Origin: Paludibacteraceae bacterium
GTDB lineage: Bacteria > Bacteroidota > Bacteroidia > Bacteroidales > Paludibacteraceae
DNA length: 52,848 nucleotides
Assembly: GCA_017938155.1 (NCBI GenBank)
Contig: JAGBCD010000008.1
Location: 1 to 52,848 of the forward strand
Reading direction: 5' to 3'
In this document: piece by piece, positions 15,935 through 24,496 of the stretch
Numbering within the stretch: position 1 is the first letter of the stretch
Layout of the letters: each line of letters starts with the position of its first letter
Made by a program: the position numbers and the translations under genes
The notes under the pieces: generated by a model
Database searches by the model: none
What the model was told of the DNA's origin: nothing
Seen by the model: only the letters and a program-made list of their open reading frames with translations

Positions 15935-17308
15935 ATGGTACAACAATTAAAAACAACTCTCCGCGACTCCGCCATTGCACGTTGGACGGTGCTTATTCTG
16001 GTGGCATCGATGATGTTCTTTGCCTACATGTTTGTGGACATCCTTTCACCTCTGGCATCCGTGCTTAACGATACCCTCGGTTGGGATCAAGGTGTCTTTG
16101 GTACTTATGCATCTGCGGAATATATCCTTTGTGTTTTTGGTTTCCTCATTTTTGCAGGAATCATTCTTGATAAGATGGGCGTTCGCTTCACGGGTTTGCT
16201 TTCGGCAGGTTTGATGGTGCTGGGTGCTTCTATCAAATATATCGGTATCTCCGACTGGTTTGATGCCAACAATATCGTATGGCTCAACTCTTGGTGGACG
16301 GCTATGCCTGGCTCTGCTAAGATGGCTGCTTTTGGTTTTATGATCTTCGGCTGCGGCTGTGAGATGGCGGGTACTACTGTTAGTAAGATTCTTGCTAAGT
16401 GGTTCAAGGGCAAAGAGATGGCATTGGCTATGGGTCTTGAGATGGCTATTGCTCGTATTGGTGTGTTCGCTGCTATGGCGTTTTCTCCTGCTATCAGTGA
16501 GCATTTCGCTGTCAATGGTCAACCCTCTGTAGTGGCTTCATTGCTTTTCGCTGCGCTTCTGCTTGTAGTGGGATTGCTCAACTTCTTCGTGTTCACCATT
16601 ATGGACACCAAGTTTGACAAGCAACTTGTGGCTATAGGCGAGGCTACTGATATGCATGACCCAGAGGATGAGTTCCATGTGTCTGACCTTGGTAAGATCT
16701 TCTCAAGCAAGATGTTCTGGATTATTGCTCTCTTGTGCGTATTGTACTATTCGGCTATCTTCCCATTCCAACGTTTTGCAACCAATTTCCTTGAGGAGAC
16801 ATTGATGATTAGCAACGCTGAGGCTTCTGGTCTGTTTAAGTGGTTCCCTATTTTGGCAATGGTGTTGACTCCATTCCTTGGAATGTTTATTGACTACAAG
16901 GGTAAGGGTGCTTCCATGATGATGATAGGTGCGGTAATTATGGTTATTTGCCATAGTATTTTTGCATTTGTCTTACCAGCATATCCAAGCAAAACGTTAG
17001 CGCTTTGTACGATTTTAGTTTTGGGTGTCAGTTTCTCATTGGTACCTGCATCCATGTGGCCGTCTGTTCCAAAGATTATTGATGAGAAGATTCTCGGTTC
17101 TGCTTATTGCTTGATTTTCTGGGTACAAAACATCGGCTTGTGCTTGGTACCCATGTTGATTGGTTCGCTCCGCGTTTCTACCGATGGTTATGTGGTGCCA
17201 ATGATTGTTTTTGCATCTTTTGGTGTATTGGCATTCTTGCTCAGCCTTGCCTTGAAGGTAGAAGACAAGAAGAAAGGTTATGGTCTGGAGTTGCCAAATA
17301 AAAAGTAA
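15935..17308 (+). CDS. MFS transporter
   Basis: A 457-residue transporter with about 12 hydrophobic helices, starting MVQQLKTTLRDSAIARWTVL with a cytoplasmic N-terminus, and ending in a lysine-rich tail (EDKKKGYGLELPNKK). TM1 begins WTVLILVASMMFFAYMFVD. A conserved charged loop between TM2 and TM3 (ILDKMGVRFTG) corresponds to the MFS G-x3-D-R motif in variant form. The substrate is not apparent. The ATG at 15935 is preferred over the upstream in-frame start at 15893, which would add a non-hydrophobic 14-residue leader. The last 45 codons plus the terminator are duplicated, about 93% identical, 2.1 kb downstream beyond a toxin-antitoxin pair. Confidence 0.9.
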   Translation: MVQQLKTTLRDSAIARWTVLILVASMMFFAYMFVDILSPLASVLNDTLGWDQGVFGTYASAEYILCVFGFLIFAGIILDKMGVRFTGLLSAGLMVLGASIKYIGISDWFDANNIVWLNSWWTAMPGSAKMAAFGFMIFGCGCEMAGTTVSKILAKWFKGKEMALAMGLEMAIARIGVFAAMAFSPAISEHFAVNGQPSVVASLLFAALLLVVGLLNFFVFTIMDTKFDKQLVAIGEATDMHDPEDEFHVSDLGKIFSSKMFWIIALLCVLYYSAIFPFQRFATNFLEETLMISNAEASGLFKWFPILAMVLTPFLGMFIDYKGKGASMMMIGAVIMVICHSIFAFVLPAYPSKTLALCTILVLGVSFSLVPASMWPSVPKIIDEKILGSAYCLIFWVQNIGLCLVPMLIGSLRVSTDGYVVPMIVFASFGVLAFLLSLALKVEDKKKGYGLELPNKK

Positions 17309-17430
17309 GGAATAAAGGAGAATGTTGCAACGTAGTTGCAACATTATAAATTCCCCTTCTAATCGCCATTTATGTTTCGGACGTAAATGGCGATTGTTTT
17401 TATCACTTATAATTCATAGTTCTTTTAGGT
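17174..17430 (+). repeat. 257-bp direct repeat, copy A (MFS 3' end plus terminator)
   Basis: Spans the last 45 codons of the MFS gene, its stop, a small TTGCAAC palindrome and the terminator. Copy B at 19283-19539 is the same length and differs at about 17 positions, mostly silent within the coding part. The copies bracket the AbiE-like pair. Confidence 0.9.
17361..17401 (+). terminator. terminator of the MFS gene
   Basis: A perfect 12-bp stem AATCGCCATTTA / TAAATGGCGATT around an 11-base loop, followed by GTTTTTAT. The same hairpin in degraded form is in the downstream duplicate near 19465-19505. Confidence 0.85.
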
Positions 17431-17511: not shown

Positions 17512-17543
17512 GTTGCATATATCAGAAAAATATACTACTTTTG
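17512..17543 (+). promoter_or_regulatory. promoter of the AbiE-like operon
   Basis: GTTG at 17512-17515, 20 bases, TACTTTTG at 17536-17543. Transcription would begin near 17550, about 50 bases before the antitoxin ATG, ruling out the in-frame start at 17541. Confidence 0.7.
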
Positions 17544-17600
17544 CATCGAACATGTCGCTATAAGTGCATTAGTTTGCGACAAAATAATACAAATATAAAT

Positions 17601-18203
17601 ATGGAATCGGTTGAAAATAAGATTATTAGAAAGATGAAGAAATGCGGAAGAGGTTCTGTATTTTTTGTAAATGATTTTCTTGCTTATGGAACTCGCTCCG
17701 CTGTCAATAAAGCCTTAGAAAGAATGGTGCTACAGGGTACTATTCTTCGTGCTGCCAGAGGTATCTATTGCTATCCCAAATTGGAGAAAGTATATGGTTT
17801 AGGAGCTATACCTCCTTCGGGTGAAGATATAGCTGCAGCCGTGGCTAAACGAGATGGAGCACACATTGTGCCATCGGGGGCATTTGCGCAATACCAATTG
17901 GGACTTACCCAGCAAATACCACTCAATTATCACTATCTTACAGATGGTACTTCGCGTACAATTACTATTGACGACACACGAAGTATTACTTTCCATCATG
18001 TCTCTCCAAGATATTTTGCATTCCAAACAAAGTTGGCACAACTTATCACTACCGCGCTCAAGGATTGGAAAATAGAGCGACTAACGGATGAACAAATCCA
18101 AACGCTCAAAACCACGATAAATAACCAAGTTCGAATCCCTGTAGCAGACTTAAAACTAATGCCTACAGCAACAAGAGAACTAATACTGAGTTTATATGAA
18201 TAA
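17601..18203 (+). CDS. AbiEi-like antitoxin / DUF6088 family
   Basis: A 200-residue protein with an N-terminal winged-helix region (MKKCGRGSVFFVNDFL, then SAVNKALERMVLQGTILRAA and the wing RGIYCYPK), the arrangement of AbiEi-type and DUF6088 antitoxins. The C-terminal half would be the toxin-neutralising domain. It overlaps the next gene by 8 bases, as is usual for this type IV toxin-antitoxin pair, and has an inverted repeat at its promoter. Family knowledge: AbiEi represses the operon and counters AbiEii without a stable complex. The start at 17601 follows from the promoter and from MESVENKIIRK being the domain start. The pair lies between two copies of the MFS gene's 3' end, so it was probably acquired as a unit. 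Confidence 0.85.
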   Translation: MESVENKIIRKMKKCGRGSVFFVNDFLAYGTRSAVNKALERMVLQGTILRAARGIYCYPKLEKVYGLGAIPPSGEDIAAAVAKRDGAHIVPSGAFAQYQLGLTQQIPLNYHYLTDGTSRTITIDDTRSITFHHVSPRYFAFQTKLAQLITTALKDWKIERLTDEQIQTLKTTINNQVRIPVADLKLMPTATRELILSLYE

Positions 18204-19233
18204 GTTTTTGACCCTTACGGTAGAGCAACGCCGTGCTGTATTCGAAAGAGTCGGTGTAAATGTGGGGTTGCCTATGCAAGCAGTAGAGAAAGATTTTTGG
18301 GTAACACTTGTCCTTCAAACCATATTCTCTCTGCCTGTCGCTGAGCATTTGATATTCAAAGGTGGTACATCACTGAGCAAAGCATGTGGGATTATCACTC
18401 GATTCTCTGAGGATATTGACTTGGCGGTAAACCCCATCTATTTAGGAGCCAAAGAGGGTGATTTAACTAAAAAGCAAATAAAGAAGCTCCGTAAGGCTTC
18501 ATCATTGTTTGTTAGCGAACAACTAACACCTATGTTGCGCACCCGATTAGAAGAATTGGGGTTGTTTGCATTCCTGAATGTTGAAGCACAACCAGATGGC
18601 GAGGGCGATAATACTTATCCCGAACCAAGACAGATATATGTACGCTATCAGTCCGTTTTTGAGAAGCCGCTGACCTATCTCCGTCCTGATGTGGTGTTAG
18701 AGGTAAGTGCTCGTTCGCTCATAGAGCCATCTATGCCAACACATGTGCATTGCATGTTAGCCGATTATGTACCTATGCAACCCCTATGCGATGTGGCTAT
18801 CTCCACCGCCATTCCTGCCAAGACAATGGTGGAGAAGATGTTTCTCCTGCATGAGCTCTTTAGTGTGTCTGGACATGGTATGCATGCGGATCGCAAGAGC
18901 CGACATTTGTACGATTTGTACCAAATGATGCAGCAGTCATTCGCAGCAGAGGCAATTGCTGATGACACTTTATGGGAAACCATTCGCCATCATCGTGAGG
19001 TATTCACATCGGTACAAGGTGTTGATTATTCGGGAGATATACGCACCAGCATTTGTCTATTACCTCGCGAAGATATTGCTGCCATATGGCAAAGAGACTA
19101 CGAAATTATGCGCAGTTCTATGATTCATGGCTCCGCTCCCACTTGGAAAGAATTGTTAGAGCAAATATCCATACTTCAAGATAGTGTGCGAAACAGCACT
19201 AAAAACAGTAGTATAAAATGCTTATTGCATTGA
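18196..19233 (+). CDS. AbiEii/AbiGii-type nucleotidyltransferase toxin
   Basis: A 345-residue protein with the nucleotidyltransferase motif of AbiEii: FKGGTSLSKACGIITRFSED followed by IDLAV, i.e. the GG-T-S/L loop (about residue 54) and the paired metal-binding Asp residues in SEDIDL (about 73-78). In characterised AbiEii/MenT enzymes this domain transfers nucleotides, for example to tRNA acceptor ends, halting growth or blocking phage; here that is inferred. The C-terminal part is helical with HADRKSRHLYDLYQMM. It overlaps the antitoxin gene by 8 bases, so translation is coupled. Shortly after its stop, the sequence becomes the duplicate of the MFS gene's end. Length is slightly above the roughly 300 residues usual for the family. 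Confidence 0.9.
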   Translation: MNKFLTLTVEQRRAVFERVGVNVGLPMQAVEKDFWVTLVLQTIFSLPVAEHLIFKGGTSLSKACGIITRFSEDIDLAVNPIYLGAKEGDLTKKQIKKLRKASSLFVSEQLTPMLRTRLEELGLFAFLNVEAQPDGEGDNTYPEPRQIYVRYQSVFEKPLTYLRPDVVLEVSARSLIEPSMPTHVHCMLADYVPMQPLCDVAISTAIPAKTMVEKMFLLHELFSVSGHGMHADRKSRHLYDLYQMMQQSFAAEAIADDTLWETIRHHREVFTSVQGVDYSGDIRTSICLLPREDIAAIWQRDYEIMRSSMIHGSAPTWKELLEQISILQDSVRNSTKNSSIKCLLH

Positions 19234-19282: not shown

Positions 19283-19417
19283 GTTTCTACCAATGGCTAT
19301 ATGGTGCCAATGATTGTCTTCGCGTCTTTTGGTGTATTGGCATTCTTGCTCAACCTTGCCTTGAAGGTAGAAGACAAGAAGAAAGGTTATGGCTTGGAGT
19401 TGCCAAATAAAAAGTAA
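19283..19417 (+). pseudogene. 3' fragment of the MFS transporter gene
   Basis: Encodes the last 45 residues of the MFS protein in the same frame (beginning V-S-T-N-G-Y, ending LELPNKK then TAA) with mostly silent changes. It has no start codon or promoter of its own. It is the coding part of direct-repeat copy B. Confidence 0.9.
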
Positions 19418-19539
19418 GGAATAAAGGAGAATGATGCAACGTAGTTGCAGCATTATAAATCCCTTTCTAATCGCCATTTATGTTTTCGGACATAATTGGC
19501 GATTGTTTTTATCACTTATAATTCATAGTTCCTTTAGGT
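19283..19539 (+). repeat. 257-bp direct repeat, copy B
   Basis: About 93% identical to 17174-17430, covering the MFS 3' end and a degraded copy of its terminator. Together with copy A it brackets the AbiE-like operon with a period of 2109 bases. The rest of the gap between the toxin gene and the DGR leader (19234-19600) shows no other gene. Confidence 0.9.
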
Positions 19540-19579
19540 TGGTAAAAGTTACATAATTAGCATTTTTATTCGCTTAATT

Positions 19580-19611
19580 CTTGCTCAGTTCAAAATATTT
19601 TACGACCTTTG
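19580..19611 (+). promoter_or_regulatory. promoter of the DGR operon leader
   Basis: CTTG at 19580-19583, 20 bases, GACCTTTG at 19604-19611. The -7 box keeps TTTG but lacks the leading TA, so it is a weaker match than most promoters here. The homologous leader of the BspA-like gene has a perfect promoter in the same place, which supports this assignment. Confidence 0.55.
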
Positions 19612-19616
19612 CGGTC

Positions 19617-19966
19617 GAAATGATTCACGCTGGGGCATGTGGGCGGGTATGTCTGCCTTTCACCCTAACAAGAATCTTTCAAAGACATAATTAAAAGGCG
19701 TTTATTGGCGCTTGTTTTGGCTTCGCGAAATCCGGAAAATTTCACATACCCGAAACAAGAGAGCGATAAATACCCCTTGGTATGTATTTTTCGTTGTGCT
19801 TCACAACGATTAGCATATCGGCGTGGGCATTCATTGTTTATTCTTGTATGTAGGGTCTTTCCGGAACCTCGCGAAGAAGAATAAGCAAAAAGAGGTTCCA
19901 CGCTTTTTCTATAATTATACCAACGGGACGTTTGGAGCCAACTCCCCACAAAACATTTAATAACAA
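19617..19966 (+). ncRNA. structured 5' leader RNA of the DGR operon (copy 1)
   Basis: About 350 bases between promoter and first gene, homologous to the leader at 51874-52195 on the other strand. Helices read here: ATGTCT/AGACAT (19649-19654 with 19683-19688); CTTGTTT/AAACAAG (19711-19717 with 19753-19759); CTTCGCGA/TCGCGAAG (19721-19728 with 19869-19876); TCCGGAAA/TTTCCGGA (19731-19738 with 19858-19865); ATACC/GGTAT and CGTTGTG/CACAACG hairpins near 19770-19810. The two long-range helices differ from the other copy by six compensatory pair changes. GGAACCTC at 19863-19870 can instead pair with GAGGTTCC at 19892-19899, just before a T-run, forming a terminator-like alternative. A cis-acting attenuator or riboswitch-like role is inferred; the ligand is unknown. 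Confidence 0.75.
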
Positions 19967-20377
19967 ATGAACAAGTTATTCTTATTTCTACTAAGTCTGT
20001 ACTTATGTAGTATGAGTGTACCGCTTCTTGCTCAGGATGCAGAACTTGTGCCCGCGATGGTAGTGCAAATGGCAGATGGCAGCAAAGAAATTGTGCAGTT
20101 GGACTACACTTCTGTGACAGACTTTAGTGTGTTATGCAGCAAGGGAGCACTGGCTGTAAGTGTGCCTGAGGCGGATGTGACAGGTGTGCGTAGTATTACT
20201 TTCGCCATGGTGGAGAAGGATAATACGACCACCTCTATAGAAGAAGTATCTTCTATGGACAATGCCACAACCGACAAGGTTCTATTCAATGGCAAATTAT
20301 TTATTCGTGCCACGATGCCCGACGGCACGCAAGTTTGGTATGATGTAATGGGTAATTTAGTTATGAACTATGAGTGA
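19967..20377 (+). CDS. small exported protein upstream of the DGR target, unknown function
   Basis: A 136-residue protein with signal peptide MNKLFLFLLSLYLCSMSVPLLA followed by Gln at +1. The mature part starts with the Bacteroidales surface-protein motif of a DG turn then a D/S-V-T segment (VVQMADGSKEIVQLDY) and has a second copy-like piece (VTGVRSITFAMVE). It ends KVLFNGKLFIRATMPDGTQV followed by WYDVMGN, which resembles the end of C-terminal domains that tell the protein to 'show its name and form' in this order (short beta hairpins with GK and G-N turns). It is 24 bases before the DGR target and shares the structured leader, so it is presumably expressed with it. I do not recognise a named family. 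Confidence 0.75.
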   Translation: MNKLFLFLLSLYLCSMSVPLLAQDAELVPAMVVQMADGSKEIVQLDYTSVTDFSVLCSKGALAVSVPEADVTGVRSITFAMVEKDNTTTSIEEVSSMDNATTDKVLFNGKLFIRATMPDGTQVWYDVMGNLVMNYE

Positions 20378-20401
20378 TGAGTTATAAGTAAAATTTAATC
20401 A

Positions 20402-21322
20402 ATGAATTACAATATGAAAAAGCTTTTTATGGCAGTCATCGCCCTGATGATGACGATTAGTGCTTCCGCACAGTTTTATATTTATTGTAGTGATGGTAAT
20501 GTCATCAAGGTGGATAGTATCAGCATGGTAGCTCCAGAGGAGCCAGAAGAACCTACTCCTCCCGCAGGCATTGGTGTGTTCTCTGTGTCAGCAGACAAGC
20601 GGGTAACCTTCTCTCCTGGTAATTTGCAGTACACTCGTTCTACTAACACATGGTCTTTTGCTGAAAATCAATACGACTACATCGGTACGGATAATGTCAC
20701 AGGTGGTAGTGTTACTTCTGACCCGTCTAATGGTGATAATAAATATGGTACTGCTTTGGCAGATAAGGTTGATTTGTTCGGTTGGGGCACGGGTAACAAT
20801 CCTACCAACTCAAGTACAGATTATAATGATTATCAAACTTTCGTTGATTGGGGTACGAATCAAATTGGCAGTGATGCTCCTAATACATGGCGTACATTGA
20901 CTTATTTTGAGTGGTCTCATTTGCTAAACACTCGCACGAATGCATCTTCTCTCAAGGGTGTGGCTCAGGTCAATGGCGTAAATGGTTTGATATTGTTGCC
21001 AGATAATTGGACATGCCCAGCAGGTGTTACCTTCAAGTCAGGTTTCCATAGTAACGATGGTGTTAATTATTATGCTGCTTATCAAACCTTTACCGCTGCG
21101 GAGTGGTCTAAACTCGAATCCGCAGGTGCAGTCTTCCTGCCTGCGGCTGGCGACCGCTACGGCTCGAATGTGAATTTCGTGCAGAGCAACGGCTACTATT
21201 GGTCTGCCACTGAGGACGATAGCGGCAGCGCGTACTACCTCCTCTTCTACTCGGACGAGGCGCGCATGGACTACGACGTTCGCAACTACGGGCTCAGTGT
21301 CCGTCTCGCTAAGGATTTATAG
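20402..21322 (+). CDS. DGR target: exported FISUMP-domain protein with C-terminal variable region
   Basis: A 306-residue exported protein. The signal peptide is MKKLFMAVIALMMTISASA (from the ATG at 20414, or with four extra residues from 20402) followed by Gln. A Pro/Glu linker (EEPEEPTPP) leads to a FISUMP (Fib_succ_major) domain with FSVSADKRVTFSPGNLQYT, WRTLTYFEWSHLLNTR, and GDRYGSNVNF. The last 47 residues (260-306) are the variable repeat, with YWSATED and SVRLAKDL as constant framework. In C-type-lectin-like folds used by DGRs, variable codons map to an exposed ligand-binding face, so this is probably a cell-surface binding protein whose specificity is diversified. It lies upstream of the template and reverse transcriptase and is expressed from the structured leader. 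Confidence 0.92.
   Translation: MNYNMKKLFMAVIALMMTISASAQFYIYCSDGNVIKVDSISMVAPEEPEEPTPPAGIGVFSVSADKRVTFSPGNLQYTRSTNTWSFAENQYDYIGTDNVTGGSVTSDPSNGDNKYGTALADKVDLFGWGTGNNPTNSSTDYNDYQTFVDWGTNQIGSDAPNTWRTLTYFEWSHLLNTRTNASSLKGVAQVNGVNGLILLPDNWTCPAGVTFKSGFHSNDGVNYYAAYQTFTAAEWSKLESAGAVFLPAAGDRYGSNVNFVQSNGYYWSATEDDSGSAYYLLFYSDEARMDYDVRNYGLSVRLAKDL
21140..21313 (+). repeat. DGR variable repeat (VR)
   Basis: Aligns without gaps to the template repeat at 21618-21791. In the 135-base core (21179-21313) there are 21 mismatches, all at template adenines (11 A to G, 8 A to T, 2 A to C). Fifteen of the 17 AAY codons of the template are changed. The 3' end (CAGTGTCCGTCTCGCTAAG) is invariant and acts as the likely initiation-of-homing site; the first difference past it is G for C at 21314. 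The 39 bases 5' of the core carry 11 mismatches, 6 of them not at adenines. Confidence 0.95.
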
Positions 21323-21329
21323 TAAGCAT

Positions 21330-21367
21330 CCCGATTTTGTTCGAAGCGAAGCCACGACAAAATCGGG
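21330..21367 (+). promoter_or_regulatory. hairpin just downstream of the VR
   Basis: A perfect 11-bp stem, CCCGATTTTGT / ACAAAATCGGG, with a 16-base loop, beginning 8 bases after the target's stop codon. In other DGRs a DNA hairpin immediately after the VR marks the site for retrohoming; this one is in the right place but has a longer stem and loop than the phage BPP-1 example. It could also terminate the target transcript, though there is no T-run. Confidence 0.65.
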
Positions 21368-21381
21368 TGTGATACAACTGT

Positions 21382-21420
21382 ATTTTCTGTTGCTCCCCTC
21401 GATGGGGTGCAACAGAAAAT
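21382..21420 (+). promoter_or_regulatory. second strong hairpin between VR and TR
   Basis: A 12-bp outer stem ATTTTCTGTTGC / GCAACAGAAAAT and a 4-bp inner CCCC/GGGG stem separated by one T-T mismatch, loop TCGAT. It is probably part of the folded DGR RNA upstream of the template or a processing/termination signal. Confidence 0.6.
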
Positions 21421-21460
21421 CGCATTATACAGGTCAAGGAGTGTATCGTTATCCTGAGTG

Positions 21461-21491
21461 TGAGCAATCATCTCTCCGTGAGAGTTGCTCA
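21461..21491 (+). promoter_or_regulatory. third hairpin between VR and TR
   Basis: TGAGCAA (21461-21467) pairs with TTGCTCA (21485-21491), enclosing CTCTC-CGT-GAGAG with a 4-base bulge. Together with the two preceding hairpins it fills the space where an avd gene is often found. No reading frame long enough for Avd exists in 21323-21614. Confidence 0.5.
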
Positions 21492-21617
21492 TAGTGTGAA
21501 AATTAGTAAATCCAGCATTTCGCCCATTTTGGGATATTTATAGAAAGGATCCGTTCCTTGAAGTCTATTGCATGATGCGTCTTGTAATATTCAACTAATG
21601 AAATGCTATGATAGTTG

Positions 21618-21791
21618 CCTGCCGCAGGCAGCCGCAACGGCTCGTATGTGTACAATGTGCAGAACAACGGCAACTATTGGTCTGCCACTGAGAACAATAG
21701 CAACAACGCGAACTACCTCAACTTCAACTCGGACGAAGCGAACATGAACAACAACAATCGCAACAACGGGCACAGTGTCCGTCTCGCTAAG
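21618..21791 (+). repeat. DGR template repeat (TR)
   Basis: The adenine-rich donor copy: the core at 21657-21791 holds 17 AAC/AAT codons when read in the target frame, including a run of four. Adenines in AAY codons can be replaced by any base without creating a stop, as is typical for DGR templates. The 3' end shares CAGTGTCCGTCTCGCTAAG with the VR. It lies directly upstream of and in frame with the reverse transcriptase. Confidence 0.95.
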
Positions 21792-22997
21792 CATTTACCC
21801 TACGACGATACACTCCTCACCGACCTCTTTCGTGCATACTACGATGCCCGTCGCAACAAACGCAATACGCGCTCACAATTGCGATTTGAACTGAATCTTG
21901 AAACCAATATCATTCATCTCTACCACGACTTGCGCGAGCGAAAGTATCGTCCTTCGCCCTCTATCTGCTTTGTAATAGAGGACTCGGTAAAACGCGAAGT
22001 CTTTGCCAGTGAGTTTCGCGATAGGGTGGTACATCATTTGTATTGGAACTATGTGGCGGACCTATTCGACCGCCTATTTATCTATGATAGTTACTCCTGC
22101 CGTAAGGGCAAAGGCACGCTCAAAGGTATTGAGCGTTTGGAACATCATATCCGTTCTGCAACGCACAACTTTACCCGTGAGGCGTGGGTGTTGCAGTTGG
22201 ATATTCAGGGATATTTCATGCATATCCGTCGTGAGCAATTGCGCGAGATGGTGTTGGAAGTGCTGCTGCGTTATGGCTATACCGACCCGCTGTTGCTCTA
22301 CCTGACGGATGTAATCATCTTGAAAGACCCTTTGGATGGTTGTCGCTATTGTGGTAAGCCCACGGATTGGGATGGATTGCCCGATAGCAAGTGCCTAAGC
22401 AAACAACCGCATGGGGTGGGGTTGCCTATTGGTGATTTGACCAGTCAGCTCTTTAGCAATATATTCTTGAATCGGTTGGATAGGTTTGTGCAGCATGATT
22501 TGGGTTTTCGGCACTATGGCAGGTATGTGGACGACTTTTGGTTGGTAGATACCAGCAAGGAGCGCTTGCGTAGTGCCATAGAACCTATACGCGTATTCTT
22601 ACGCGAGATGGGTATGACTTTGCACCCAAAGAAAATACGCTTGTATCTTTGTACGGAGCGTGTGGCGTTCTTGGGGGCGGTGTGTGCACCCTATTGCAGA
22701 CATGCCAGCAAACGCACTACGCAGAAGTTTCATGATAAATTGCTAATGTGGGAGAAAGATTTGGAAAATCTTTCATCAATTACTGATAAAAGAGAACGAG
22801 AACAGTGGTTAACAGACTGCCGTGCTTGTGTGAATTCGTACTTGGGATATTTAGGACATTTCAATGCAGATAGGTTGGTGTGTAGGGAACTGAGTGGCTC
22901 GAAGTTATTGGAGATGTTTGCGGTAGAGAAGACAGACAATGCGCGGTGCGGAAAGGTCAGATGTGAAAATATATGCTTTCTATCGATATTTTCCTAA
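21744..22997 (+). CDS. DGR reverse transcriptase
   Basis: A 417-residue group II intron-like reverse transcriptase. Fingers begin LPYDDTLLTDLFRAYYDARR; RYRPSP-like KYRPSPSICFVIED and VKREVFASEFRDRVVHH are typical of the family; motif 3 is WVLQLDIQGYFMHI; GLPIGDLTSQLFSNIFLNRL contains the DGR-specific GxxxSQ (residues 230-235) in place of the intron type; catalytic YVDD is at 261-264. A thumb-like helical tail follows. It copies the template RNA with errors at adenines and delivers cDNA to the variable repeat. The only ATG before the fingers is at 21744, inside the template; the frame stays open to 21615 (TTG), so a longer start cannot be excluded. No fused accessory domain is seen. Confidence 0.93.
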   Translation: MNNNNRNNGHSVRLAKHLPYDDTLLTDLFRAYYDARRNKRNTRSQLRFELNLETNIIHLYHDLRERKYRPSPSICFVIEDSVKREVFASEFRDRVVHHLYWNYVADLFDRLFIYDSYSCRKGKGTLKGIERLEHHIRSATHNFTREAWVLQLDIQGYFMHIRREQLREMVLEVLLRYGYTDPLLLYLTDVIILKDPLDGCRYCGKPTDWDGLPDSKCLSKQPHGVGLPIGDLTSQLFSNIFLNRLDRFVQHDLGFRHYGRYVDDFWLVDTSKERLRSAIEPIRVFLREMGMTLHPKKIRLYLCTERVAFLGAVCAPYCRHASKRTTQKFHDKLLMWEKDLENLSSITDKREREQWLTDCRACVNSYLGYLGHFNADRLVCRELSGSKLLEMFAVEKTDNARCGKVRCENICFLSIFS

Positions 22998-23031
22998 TTA
23001 GCAATGTTACTATGCTTAATCGAAGGACTTT

Positions 23032-23113
23032 ATGGAAAAAGTGACAAAAATATATGTTAAAATCATGGAAAAAGTGACAAAAATATATGTTAAAATCATG
23101 GAAAAAGTGACAA
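23032..23113 (+). repeat. 33-bp tandem repeat, 2.5 copies
   Basis: Two identical 33-base units (23032-23064, 23065-23097) and a 16-base partial third, each starting ATGGAAAAAGTGACAA. The array ends 3 bases before the -33 box of the next gene, so copy number could alter that promoter. Confidence 0.9.
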
Positions 23114-23116
23114 TTG

Positions 23117-23148
23117 TTTGTGTATGTCAAAGATTTTCAGTATCTTTG
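23117..23148 (+). promoter_or_regulatory. promoter of the DUF4143 ATPase gene
   Basis: TTTG at 23117-23120, 20 bases, TATCTTTG at 23141-23148. The ATG at 23171 follows 22 bases later; the in-frame start at 23114 lies upstream of the promoter and is rejected. Confidence 0.8.
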
Positions 23149-23170
23149 CCAAAAAATAAATATTTGTGGT

Positions 23171-24496
23171 ATGCTAAGGCGTAAGTTTGCGAAGTTCTTA
23201 GAATCATTTCTAAGCGAAAACCAGAATAAGATATTGTTAGTTAATGGTGCCAGGCAAATCGGTAAATCCTTTATTATTCGACATATCGGTAGCCAATTGT
23301 TTCCTAATTTTGTAGAGATTGATTTGCGTGCTGATAGTGAGAATGAACAGTTATTTGCAGATGTGAGTAGTGTGGATAGCTTTTATCTACAACTGAGTGC
23401 GTTTGCGGGCAATCGTTTAGGAGAAAAACAAGATACACTGATTTTCTTAGATGAGATACAGGTTTATCCTCGTATGCTGACATTGCTAAAATTTCTCAAT
23501 CAGGATGATAGATTTACTTATATTGCTAGCGGTTCACAATTGGGTGTTGCATTATCCCAAACGTCGTCTGTGCCATTAGGTAGTATATTGATCAAGCAAA
23601 TGTATCCATTGGACTTGGAAGAGTTCTTTTGGGCAATGGGGGTTGGTGAAGAGGCTATCAATACTGCTCGTGAATGTTTCCAAAATCAGCAAGCACTACC
23701 AGGAAAATTGCATGATCGGTTTATGCATATTTTCAAATATTATCTATTGACAGGAGGGTTACCTGATGCGGTAAATCAATTCTTGAAGGACAAGAATGTT
23801 CAGCGAATGCGTGATGTGCAACGCGATATACATGCTCTCTATGGGATAGATGCTTCGCAGTATGATCAACAAAATCGACTGAAGATTCGTCGTGTCTATG
23901 ATTTAATTCCATCCAATCTCGAAAATAAGAAGAAGCGTGTTGTTGTTAATAGGATTGAAAATAAAAAAGGTAAGCAGTTCTCTGACTACGAATATGAATT
24001 TGATTATTTGGTGCAATCGGGTATAGCATTACAAGTGGATGCGATTAGTAATCCTCGCTTCCCATTATTACAATCCGTAAAAAAGAGTTTGCTCAAACTA
24101 TACCTCAATGATGTAGGAATATTAACTGCACTTTTGTATCAAAATAATATCAATGCAGTTTTGAATGATGAGTGTAGTGTCAATCTTGGAACGGTGTATG
24201 AAGCTGTTGTTGCACAAGAATTGCGTGCACATGGTTTTGATTTGTATTACTACGACAACAAACAACACGGAGAGGTGGATTTCTTAATAGATAACTATTC
24301 TACACTATCTGTGGTTCCTTTGGAAATCAAATCGGGTAAAGATTATTATGTGCATAGTGCTCTCAATCACTTTGTCTCTAATAGTGAATACGGAATACAA
24401 AATGCGGTAGTGTTGTCTAATAATGCCGAAGTAATTCAAAAGGGAAAAATTATTTATATGCCTATCTATTATGTGATGTTTATCATTCCAAACTGA
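23171..24496 (+). CDS. AAA-type ATPase with DUF4143 nuclease-like domain
   Basis: A 441-residue protein of a family that is common and variable in Bacteroidales. The N-terminal ATPase has Walker A as NGARQIGKS (residues about 26-34) and Walker B as LIFLDEIQ; sensor region SGSQLGV. The C-terminal DUF4143 part ends in a PD-(D/E)XK-like element: GEVDFLID and PLEIKSGKDY. Function is not established for the family; roles in stress or defence are speculative. It is a single-gene unit, next to the DGR but with its own promoter, so no functional link is implied. Confidence 0.88.
   Translation: MLRRKFAKFLESFLSENQNKILLVNGARQIGKSFIIRHIGSQLFPNFVEIDLRADSENEQLFADVSSVDSFYLQLSAFAGNRLGEKQDTLIFLDEIQVYPRMLTLLKFLNQDDRFTYIASGSQLGVALSQTSSVPLGSILIKQMYPLDLEEFFWAMGVGEEAINTARECFQNQQALPGKLHDRFMHIFKYYLLTGGLPDAVNQFLKDKNVQRMRDVQRDIHALYGIDASQYDQQNRLKIRRVYDLIPSNLENKKKRVVVNRIENKKGKQFSDYEYEFDYLVQSGIALQVDAISNPRFPLLQSVKKSLLKLYLNDVGILTALLYQNNINAVLNDECSVNLGTVYEAVVAQELRAHGFDLYYYDNKQHGEVDFLIDNYSTLSVVPLEIKSGKDYYVHSALNHFVSNSEYGIQNAVVLSNNAEVIQKGKIIYMPIYYVMFIIPN

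Follow-up and report, generated by a model that had tools for sequence, protein, structure and literature searches.

The closest described systems to the locus reported here are the diversity-generating retroelement (DGR) of BPP-1, the DGRs of other Bacteroidales that carry MutS-like (MSL) and/or Avd helpers, and the RNA family RT-7 (RF03028). Most DGRs, though not all, include an accessory gene (Avd, MSL, or HRDC). The BPP-1 element is laid out as mtd, bbp7, template repeat (TR), and brt, with the TR ending at 2320 and brt starting at 2465; we take bbp7 to be avd. At the 3' edge of the BPP-1 repeats, a fixed difference between the TR and the variable repeat (VR) forms the IMH*/IMH pair. The spacer between the BPP-1 TR and brt folds and recruits bRT-Avd, as PMC12875486 describes it, and the repair frequency given there without Avd is about 1e-9. 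We examined a DGR on a stretch of 52,848 nucleotides (nt) from a Paludibacteraceae bacterium (GenBank assembly GCA_017938155.1, contig JAGBCD010000008.1, positions 1 to 52,848), referred to below as the window. As a DGR it is ordinary, one of many reported in Bacteroidetes; its RNA leader and its absent helper are not, and the build of the element is the point of this report.

The locus resembles BPP-1 in its VR-TR-reverse transcriptase (RT) order, its adenine-specific differences between VR and TR, its homologous RT (PDB 8ub7), and a hairpin past the stop codon of the target. In contrast to BPP-1, there is no gene between target and TR and no room for a spacer, as about 25 nt separate the TR from the conserved start of the RT, and a folded leader lies 5' of the TR. 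We are highly confident in reading the locus as a chromosomal DGR of a Bacteroidales gut bacterium, with a DGR RT whose 5' frame end overlaps the TR, two targets, a leader 5' of the TR, presumed retrohoming, and no helper of its own. Its parts are listed here, with the sister species being the closest relative described below.

Positions 20402 to 21322, plus strand: target gene 1, an open reading frame (ORF) for a 306-amino-acid (aa) exported protein with a FISUMP-like C-terminal half (TIGR02145) and the VR at its end.
Positions 21138 to 21319, plus strand: variable repeat VR1, with an adenine-only core at 21179 to 21313, from the repeat alignment.
Positions 21330 to 21367, plus strand: hairpin just past the target stop codon, with an 11-bp stem and a 16-nt loop containing GCGAAGC (DNA fold z, -5.28; comparison with the sister species).
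Positions 21382 to 21420, plus strand: second strong intergenic hairpin, read directly from the sequence and nearly unchanged in the sister species.
Positions 21452 to 21615, plus strand: structured RNA leader, distantly RT-7-like (RF03028), abutting the TR (Rfam match and covariation model).
Positions 21616 to 21797, plus strand: template repeat TR, from the repeat alignment and comparison with the sister species.
Positions 21744 to 22997, plus strand: DGR RT, with its likely start at ATG 21744 within the TR and its frame open from 21615.

The VR1 core (21179 to 21313) aligned without gaps over 135 nt with positions 21657 to 21791 of the TR. All 21 mismatches fell on template adenines (21 of 48, versus 0 of 87 non-adenine sites; hypergeometric p = 1.1e-11), with 11 changed to G, 8 to T, and 2 to C. 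Read in the frame of the target, the template core contains 17 AAY codons; neither of the other two frames contains any. An initial annotation of this DNA had reported the same alignment, substitutions, and codon count as evidence of adenine-specific mutagenic homing. Every number was reproduced on recount, and the assignment to a DGR is further borne out by a second target, a cassette in the sister species, and the placement of the RT. The recent activity that it also proposed is plausible for the VR1 core, though undated. The gapless homology extends to 182 nt in all (21138 to 21319 in VR1 with 21616 to 21797 in the TR), over which 26 of 58 adenine and 7 of 124 non-adenine sites differ. Six non-adenine mismatches lie in the 5' 41 nt, three of them common to VR1 and the second variable repeat, VR2, against the TR, suggesting that the 5' end of the TR, or the reach of homing, has drifted. 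Position 21792 of the TR is C, with G in both VR1 and VR2; at the matching position the sister species likewise has C in the TR and G in both VRs.

The TR was used to search the genome of the organism (G000; 1.96 Mb in 45 contigs, 93% complete), and three places matched: the TR itself, VR1, and VR2, which lies on contig C18 (53409 to 53589, minus strand). VR2 ends a 498-aa protein with a lipoprotein-like start (judged by eye) and a weak FISUMP match. It differs from the full-length TR at 24 of 58 adenine and 7 of 124 non-adenine sites and from the core at 20 of 48 and 3 of 87, respectively. Of the 36 template adenines changed in at least one VR, only 4 carry the same base in both, which indicates that each VR was rewritten independently. 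The first target matched TIGR02145 below its cut-off (5.4e-05; 23.9 bits versus 41.65) and had no match in Pfam; a target profile found no relative among solved structures at E values up to 1. The N terminus of this protein is signal-peptide-like (judged by eye). A VR in the C-terminal part of a target with C-type lectin fold is characteristic of DGRs; here the VR does occupy the C-terminal part of the protein. As the initial annotation presumed, we infer from sequence that the targets are located at the surface. None of six other FISUMP loci in the genome showed an adenine-only pattern when compared with the TR. The paralogues L285 (contig C14) and L286 (C18) had a mild adenine excess but many other changes and were not counted as further targets. 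By eye, these two FISUMP gene ends are nearer to the DGR repeats of L060 to L062 than to the present TR, and they are perhaps targets of a lost or unassembled second DGR.

An RT search across the genus matched 20 of 178 genomes (own genome included) at 33 places, and among the 17 RT loci fetched, 16 had an adenine-biased VR/TR pair; in the exception, L036, a FISUMP-looking gene is truncated by the contig end. For the genomes of relatives, the best 80 of 325 were kept. The closest relative is the sister species G067 (record JAFYSB010000029.1, a Paludibacteraceae metagenome-assembled genome from water buffalo caecum; assembly 90% complete), whose RT is 88% identical and whose cassette is the same, with two targets of its own. 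The two templates differ at 2 of 58 adenine and 12 of 124 non-adenine sites. The sister TR differs from its VRs at 27 of 63 adenine and 4 of 122 non-adenine sites in one case and at 34 of 63 and 12 of 122 in the other. VRs in the window and the sister species therefore vary mainly at template adenines while the template keeps its adenines, which is the behavior that the initial annotation predicted for related genomes. The sister genome also holds a second, distant DGR (L051, on G067 contig C40) with an RT 34% identical, an HRDC helper, and a mapped TR that overlaps the 3' end of the RT gene.

The translated RT contains the YVDD and GxxxSQ motifs (the latter as GDLTSQ), as first noted. A profile of seven RTs had as its top match among solved structures PDB 8ub7 (8.2e-46), compared with 2.6e-18 for the best group II intron maturase. 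The 8ub7 protein, entered as "Reverse transcriptase," is presumably the BPP-1 DGR RT. Of the 107 extracted RTs, 68 entered a tree built by a quick method, with two group II intron RTs as its root and no retron row; it placed the window RT with DGR RTs and not with introns. The window and sister RTs formed a pair (support, 100) inside a clade of ten rows (support, 99); long branches were flagged, BPP-1, VHML, and L051 among them. A group II intron or retron RT was rejected on profile scores (TIGR04416, 101.6 bits versus a cut-off of 300; retron St85, 38.4 versus 235). The expectation that the RT would group with those of DGRs rather than introns was thus upheld by the profile and by the intron-rooted tree without a retron row.

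The initial annotation placed the adenine-rich repeat directly upstream of the RT. The repeat does adjoin the RT, but the TR actually lies inside the open frame of the RT, which runs from 21615 to 22997 through the TR; the sole ATG before the conserved RT start is at 21744, inside the TR. In 14 of the 68 rows for which a repeat was mapped, the window among them, an ATG occurs within the TR but not between TR and RT; L035 and L059 have common sequence, as do L107 and L114, so that the rows reduce to 66. A GTG or TTG is present past the TR in four of the other 13 (L122, L126, L132, and L136) and also in L112. Overlap of the TR with the RT ORF was already noted in 2012 (Schillinger et al., PMC3521204); as far as they are described there, the cassettes of structural group 3 differ from this one, whose RT has its sole ATG within the TR. 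Between the window and the sister species, RT amino acid identity was 0.75 to 1.00 in 11 of 12 bins and 0.30 in the C-terminal bin, with 0.44 to 0.85 of fourfold sites identical. The fraction of identical codons was 0.84 in the first 80 codons (TR included) and equally high, 0.85, in codons 400 to 439, so that a hidden spacer within the RT coding sequence is neither supported nor refuted by this comparison.

The sequence just 5' of the TR distantly matched a known RNA family. With cmscan at an open threshold, positions 19400 to 23200 gave one match, RT-7 RNA (RF03028) at 21452 to 21613, covering the full model (1 to 191 of 191) with 30.0 bits (E = 1.9e-4). The gathering cut-off is 116.8 bits, and the leader is thus RT-7-like rather than a filed member of the family. 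Four of six relatives also matched over the full length at the open threshold (23.8 to 26.5 bits; E = 0.022 to 0.12, weak taken alone), while L063 and L084 gave no match at that threshold. Matches above the curated cut-off came from 3 of 21 sources (L064, L065, and L067; 142 to 159 bits), with RT-7 placed directly before the TR as in the window. In all eight cases (the window, the four weak matches, and the three curated ones), the RT-7 end lay within 7 nt of the independently mapped TR start.

A covariation model built from six leaders of the clade (R1) comprised 46 pairs, 28 of them with changes on both sides. In this model 92.5% of cells were paired, versus 37 to 46% when partners were slid, and none of 500 shuffles reached the covariation score. 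The long-range closing helix, helix 2, was the weakest (78.6% of cells paired). Folding of single leader sequences gave z values of -1.76 and -1.10, unconvincing alone, and so the case for the leader rests on covariation. Searching both strands of 97 sources (1.03 Mb) with R1 returned 59 matches at E values up to 1, all on the RT strand: 6 in training loci and 53 in 26 others, of which L107 and L114 share sequence. Among 14 nontraining loci with both a match and a mapped repeat, 10 (L107 and L114 included) had a match ending within 10 nt of the TR start. The exceptions were L063 (90 nt), L065 (99 nt, where the R1 match is shorter than that of RT-7), L121 (54 nt), and L109 (145 nt or more). In an alignment of 52 matches to R1, pairing was above all controls, the alignment itself being fitted to the structure. 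R1 had no match at the remote target loci L005 and L057; the leader therefore goes with templates, not with targets.

In the reverse direction, we searched 295 genomes of the order for RT-7 regardless of DGRs, with stricter filters and at most 8 candidates scored per genome. This yielded 18 matches spread over 11 genomes, all of them below the curated cut-off and none in G000. A DGR-like RT was next on the same strand in 11 of the 18, an adenine-biased repeat started within 8 nt of the RT-7 end in 9, and one or the other was present in 12; the six misses were all in genome G470. This test makes it most likely that RT-7-like RNA forms the 5' portion of the template RNA of DGRs. None of the papers listed by the literature search mentioned RT-7 RNA or RF03028, and an earlier notice of the link is possible.

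Several loci carry more than one such unit. In L074, L076, L078, L085, L094, L100, and L109 (records of Alistipes, Rikenella, and Prevotella), a single RT is accompanied by three to six units, each made up of an RT-7-like leader and a template-like FISUMP end; the units lie upstream of the RT and, in L109, on both sides. At asparagine codons, some of these tandem units seem to have been mutated already. DGRs with multiple TRs have been reported (PMC6642488); a leader on each tandem unit was not described in the literature searched. Of the six RT-7 matches of G470 (L267:8798-15594, L268, and L278), four cluster within 7 kb; none has a mapped TR, and the fetched stretch showed no RT on that strand downstream of them.

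No Avd, MSL, or HRDC gene was found at the window locus, and the roughly 290 nt between VR1 and TR, conserved in sequence in the sister species, contain no helper-sized frame. By comparison, 15 of 16 loci of the genus with mapped repeats have a helper-size ORF after the target (between target and TR or, in L051, between target and RT); the sole locus without one is the sister copy of the present cassette. Ten such ORFs were compared with Pfam, and six matched at E values up to 0.01. Those of L037, L041, and L047 were Avd-like, those of L037, L038, and L040 matched MutS domain I (the latter two weakly), and that of L051 matched HRDC. Those of L039, L042, L043, and L044 had no Pfam match at that threshold. 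A tblastn search found matches to MSL or Avd in 72 of 98 sources; these sources include the query loci and three pairs sharing sequence, several are cut by contig ends, and the queries miss some Avd types. The Bacteroidales DGRs of MSL or MSL-Avd type (L037 to L040, L061, L062, L064, and L065) are like the window in their related RTs and, where aligned, FISUMP-like targets, but they carry MutS-like and/or Avd helpers, which the window and sister cassettes lack. Within the RT clade of the window the helper is displaced in some relatives: L061 and L063 encode it upstream of the target, L062 encodes it downstream of the RT, and the genome of L084 has it elsewhere.

Searching the rest of G000 with four queries (a bAvd profile, MSL and MSL-Avd alignments, and the HRDC helper of L051) found no convincing helper. 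The MSL alignment matched once, in an 889-aa frame of MutS size. The MSL-Avd alignment reached 25.6 bits in G000, on a 119-aa 23S-IVP-type protein on contig C16, and 14.9 bits over 23 positions in G067; it matched all five genomes of relatives, two by construction (as row donors) and one with the MSL half only. The HRDC query (156 aa) met only frames of 731 and 838 aa in G000, too long for a helper, and in G067 the L051 gene itself and a 735-aa frame. No Avd or MSL was found in G067. The C16 protein, the best candidate, is an ordinary 23S-IVP protein (PF05635, 119 bits; bAvd, 31 bits).

Just past the target stop codon, the hairpin at 21330 to 21367 corresponds to the target-site hairpin of DGRs, judging from sequence and predicted folding. 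The sister species keeps its 11-bp stem with changed bases, and five of six hairpins folded from the clade beat shuffled sequences (z, -3.7 to -5.7), L060 being weak (z, -1.65). At the VR2 site, the 5' arm and loop are kept but the full stem is not. The long loop contains GCGAAGC or GCGTAGC, of the GCGNAGC form of very stable DNA mini-hairpins. For BPP-1, Guo et al. (2011; PMC3240598) describe a post-VR hairpin as needed for efficient homing, and they describe GRNA loops in phage DGRs.

In the mechanism that we propose, a single transcript would comprise the leader, the template, and the RT message. The RT would copy the template, misreading adenines, and the leader may either recruit the RT or stop it at the 5' edge of the template. 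The mutated cDNA would then replace the VR beside the hairpin past the stop codon of the target, with the 3' boundary marked by the fixed mismatch (C at TR position 21792, G in the VRs), as with IMH*/IMH. The products would be exported C-terminal domains varying at asparagine-codon positions. In its full form this account holds that in many Bacteroidales the DGR template RNA has RT-7 as its structured 5' portion, and that leader RNA and RT suffice here, so that two exported proteins are diversified without an Avd, MSL, or HRDC partner of the element's own or a 3' spacer, one RNA serving as both template and RT message. We regard this full form as possible but rather doubtful. The BPP-1 mechanism depends on Avd and on an RNA spacer that follows the template, whereas the lineage of the window seems to lack both and has a covarying 5' fold instead. 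If true, the account would give the orphan RNA family RT-7 a concrete, testable job, provide a marker for DGR templates that does not require knowing the target, and offer a smaller toolkit for targeted protein diversification.

Four points count against the overall reading of the locus. No helper gene seems to be present here, although BPP-1 without Avd drops to about 1e-9 by the figure given in PMC12875486. No leader match at E values up to 1 was found in 65 of the 97 related DGR sources. What the leader does is judged from its position, and the three non-adenine changes in the VR2 core suggest that its last rewriting is older or that it has drifted. The absent helper could instead be supplied in trans, either by the C16 protein acting as Avd or by a helper gene (Avd, MSL, or HRDC) that the assembly lacks, and this we treat as a serious possibility that nonetheless falls short of even odds. 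The assembly is 93% complete, relatives of the same clade have moved their helper, and the HRDC helper beside the second DGR of the sister genome lowers the standing of a helper-free reading. The C16 protein scores about 30 bits with the bAvd profile, and PF05635 resembles Avd according to a review (PMC10053308). However, the sister genome (90% complete) also gave no Avd or MSL match, and the chance that both assemblies missed one is about 0.7% (0.07 x 0.10) if the two are independent. The HRDC query met only overlong frames in G000, and the C16 protein looks like a plain IVP, with neighbors resembling sugar and cell-envelope genes (by eye) and no counterpart in the bAvd search of the sister genome.

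The missing helper, together with the divergence of the 5' part of the TR and VRs at non-adenine sites, would also suit a fading relic in which the helper was lost and diversification ended. We consider this improbable, given an intact RT frame and motifs, constraint at the protein level between species, a VR1 core without any non-adenine change, and template adenines conserved between species. Slightly less improbable, but still unlikely, is that the leader regulates RT expression (as an attenuator or in a riboswitch-like manner) and is not part of the template RNA. The leader does precede the RT message, and the only type that Rfam assigns to RT-7 is small RNA gene. In L271 and L277, though, the RT match begins 568 and 555 nt past the RT-7 end while the TR starts within 6 nt of it, so the 3' end of the leader keeps to the TR start and not to the RT start; the loci with tandem leader and template-like units per single RT also argue for a template role. 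Finally, the genome has several FISUMP paralogues, and ordinary divergence or gene conversion between them might be invoked for the repeat differences. With changes concentrated on template adenines in four VRs and six paralogue loci lacking an adenine-only pattern, this explanation has almost no probability left.

The initial annotation began the DGR interval at 19967. While the DGR within that interval was confirmed, its first part belongs to a separate neighboring protein, listed here.

Positions 19967 to 20377, plus strand: ORF for a 136-aa exported protein, probably outside the mechanism; in the sister species a counterpart immediately precedes the target.

The remote target of the sister species (L057:2790-7775, minus strand) is a 1,662-aa protein with a signal-like start. 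Its first 130 aa match a ubiquitin domain (PF00240; 1.4e-18), and the protein also contains InlB B-repeats, BspA leucine-rich repeats, and two FISUMP-like parts. A ubiquitin-like domain is an odd feature for an exported, diversified protein. Elsewhere in the window, positions 17174 to 17430 and 19283 to 19539 are duplicates, 93 to 95% identical, of the 3' end of a transporter-like gene and the sequence following it. They flank an AbiEi/AbiEii toxin-antitoxin pair (17541 to 19233); the arrangement looks like an insertion of the pair together with a duplicated gene tail. Positions 23032 to 23097, just before an AAA/DUF4143 ATPase gene, hold two perfect 33-bp tandem copies and a partial third.

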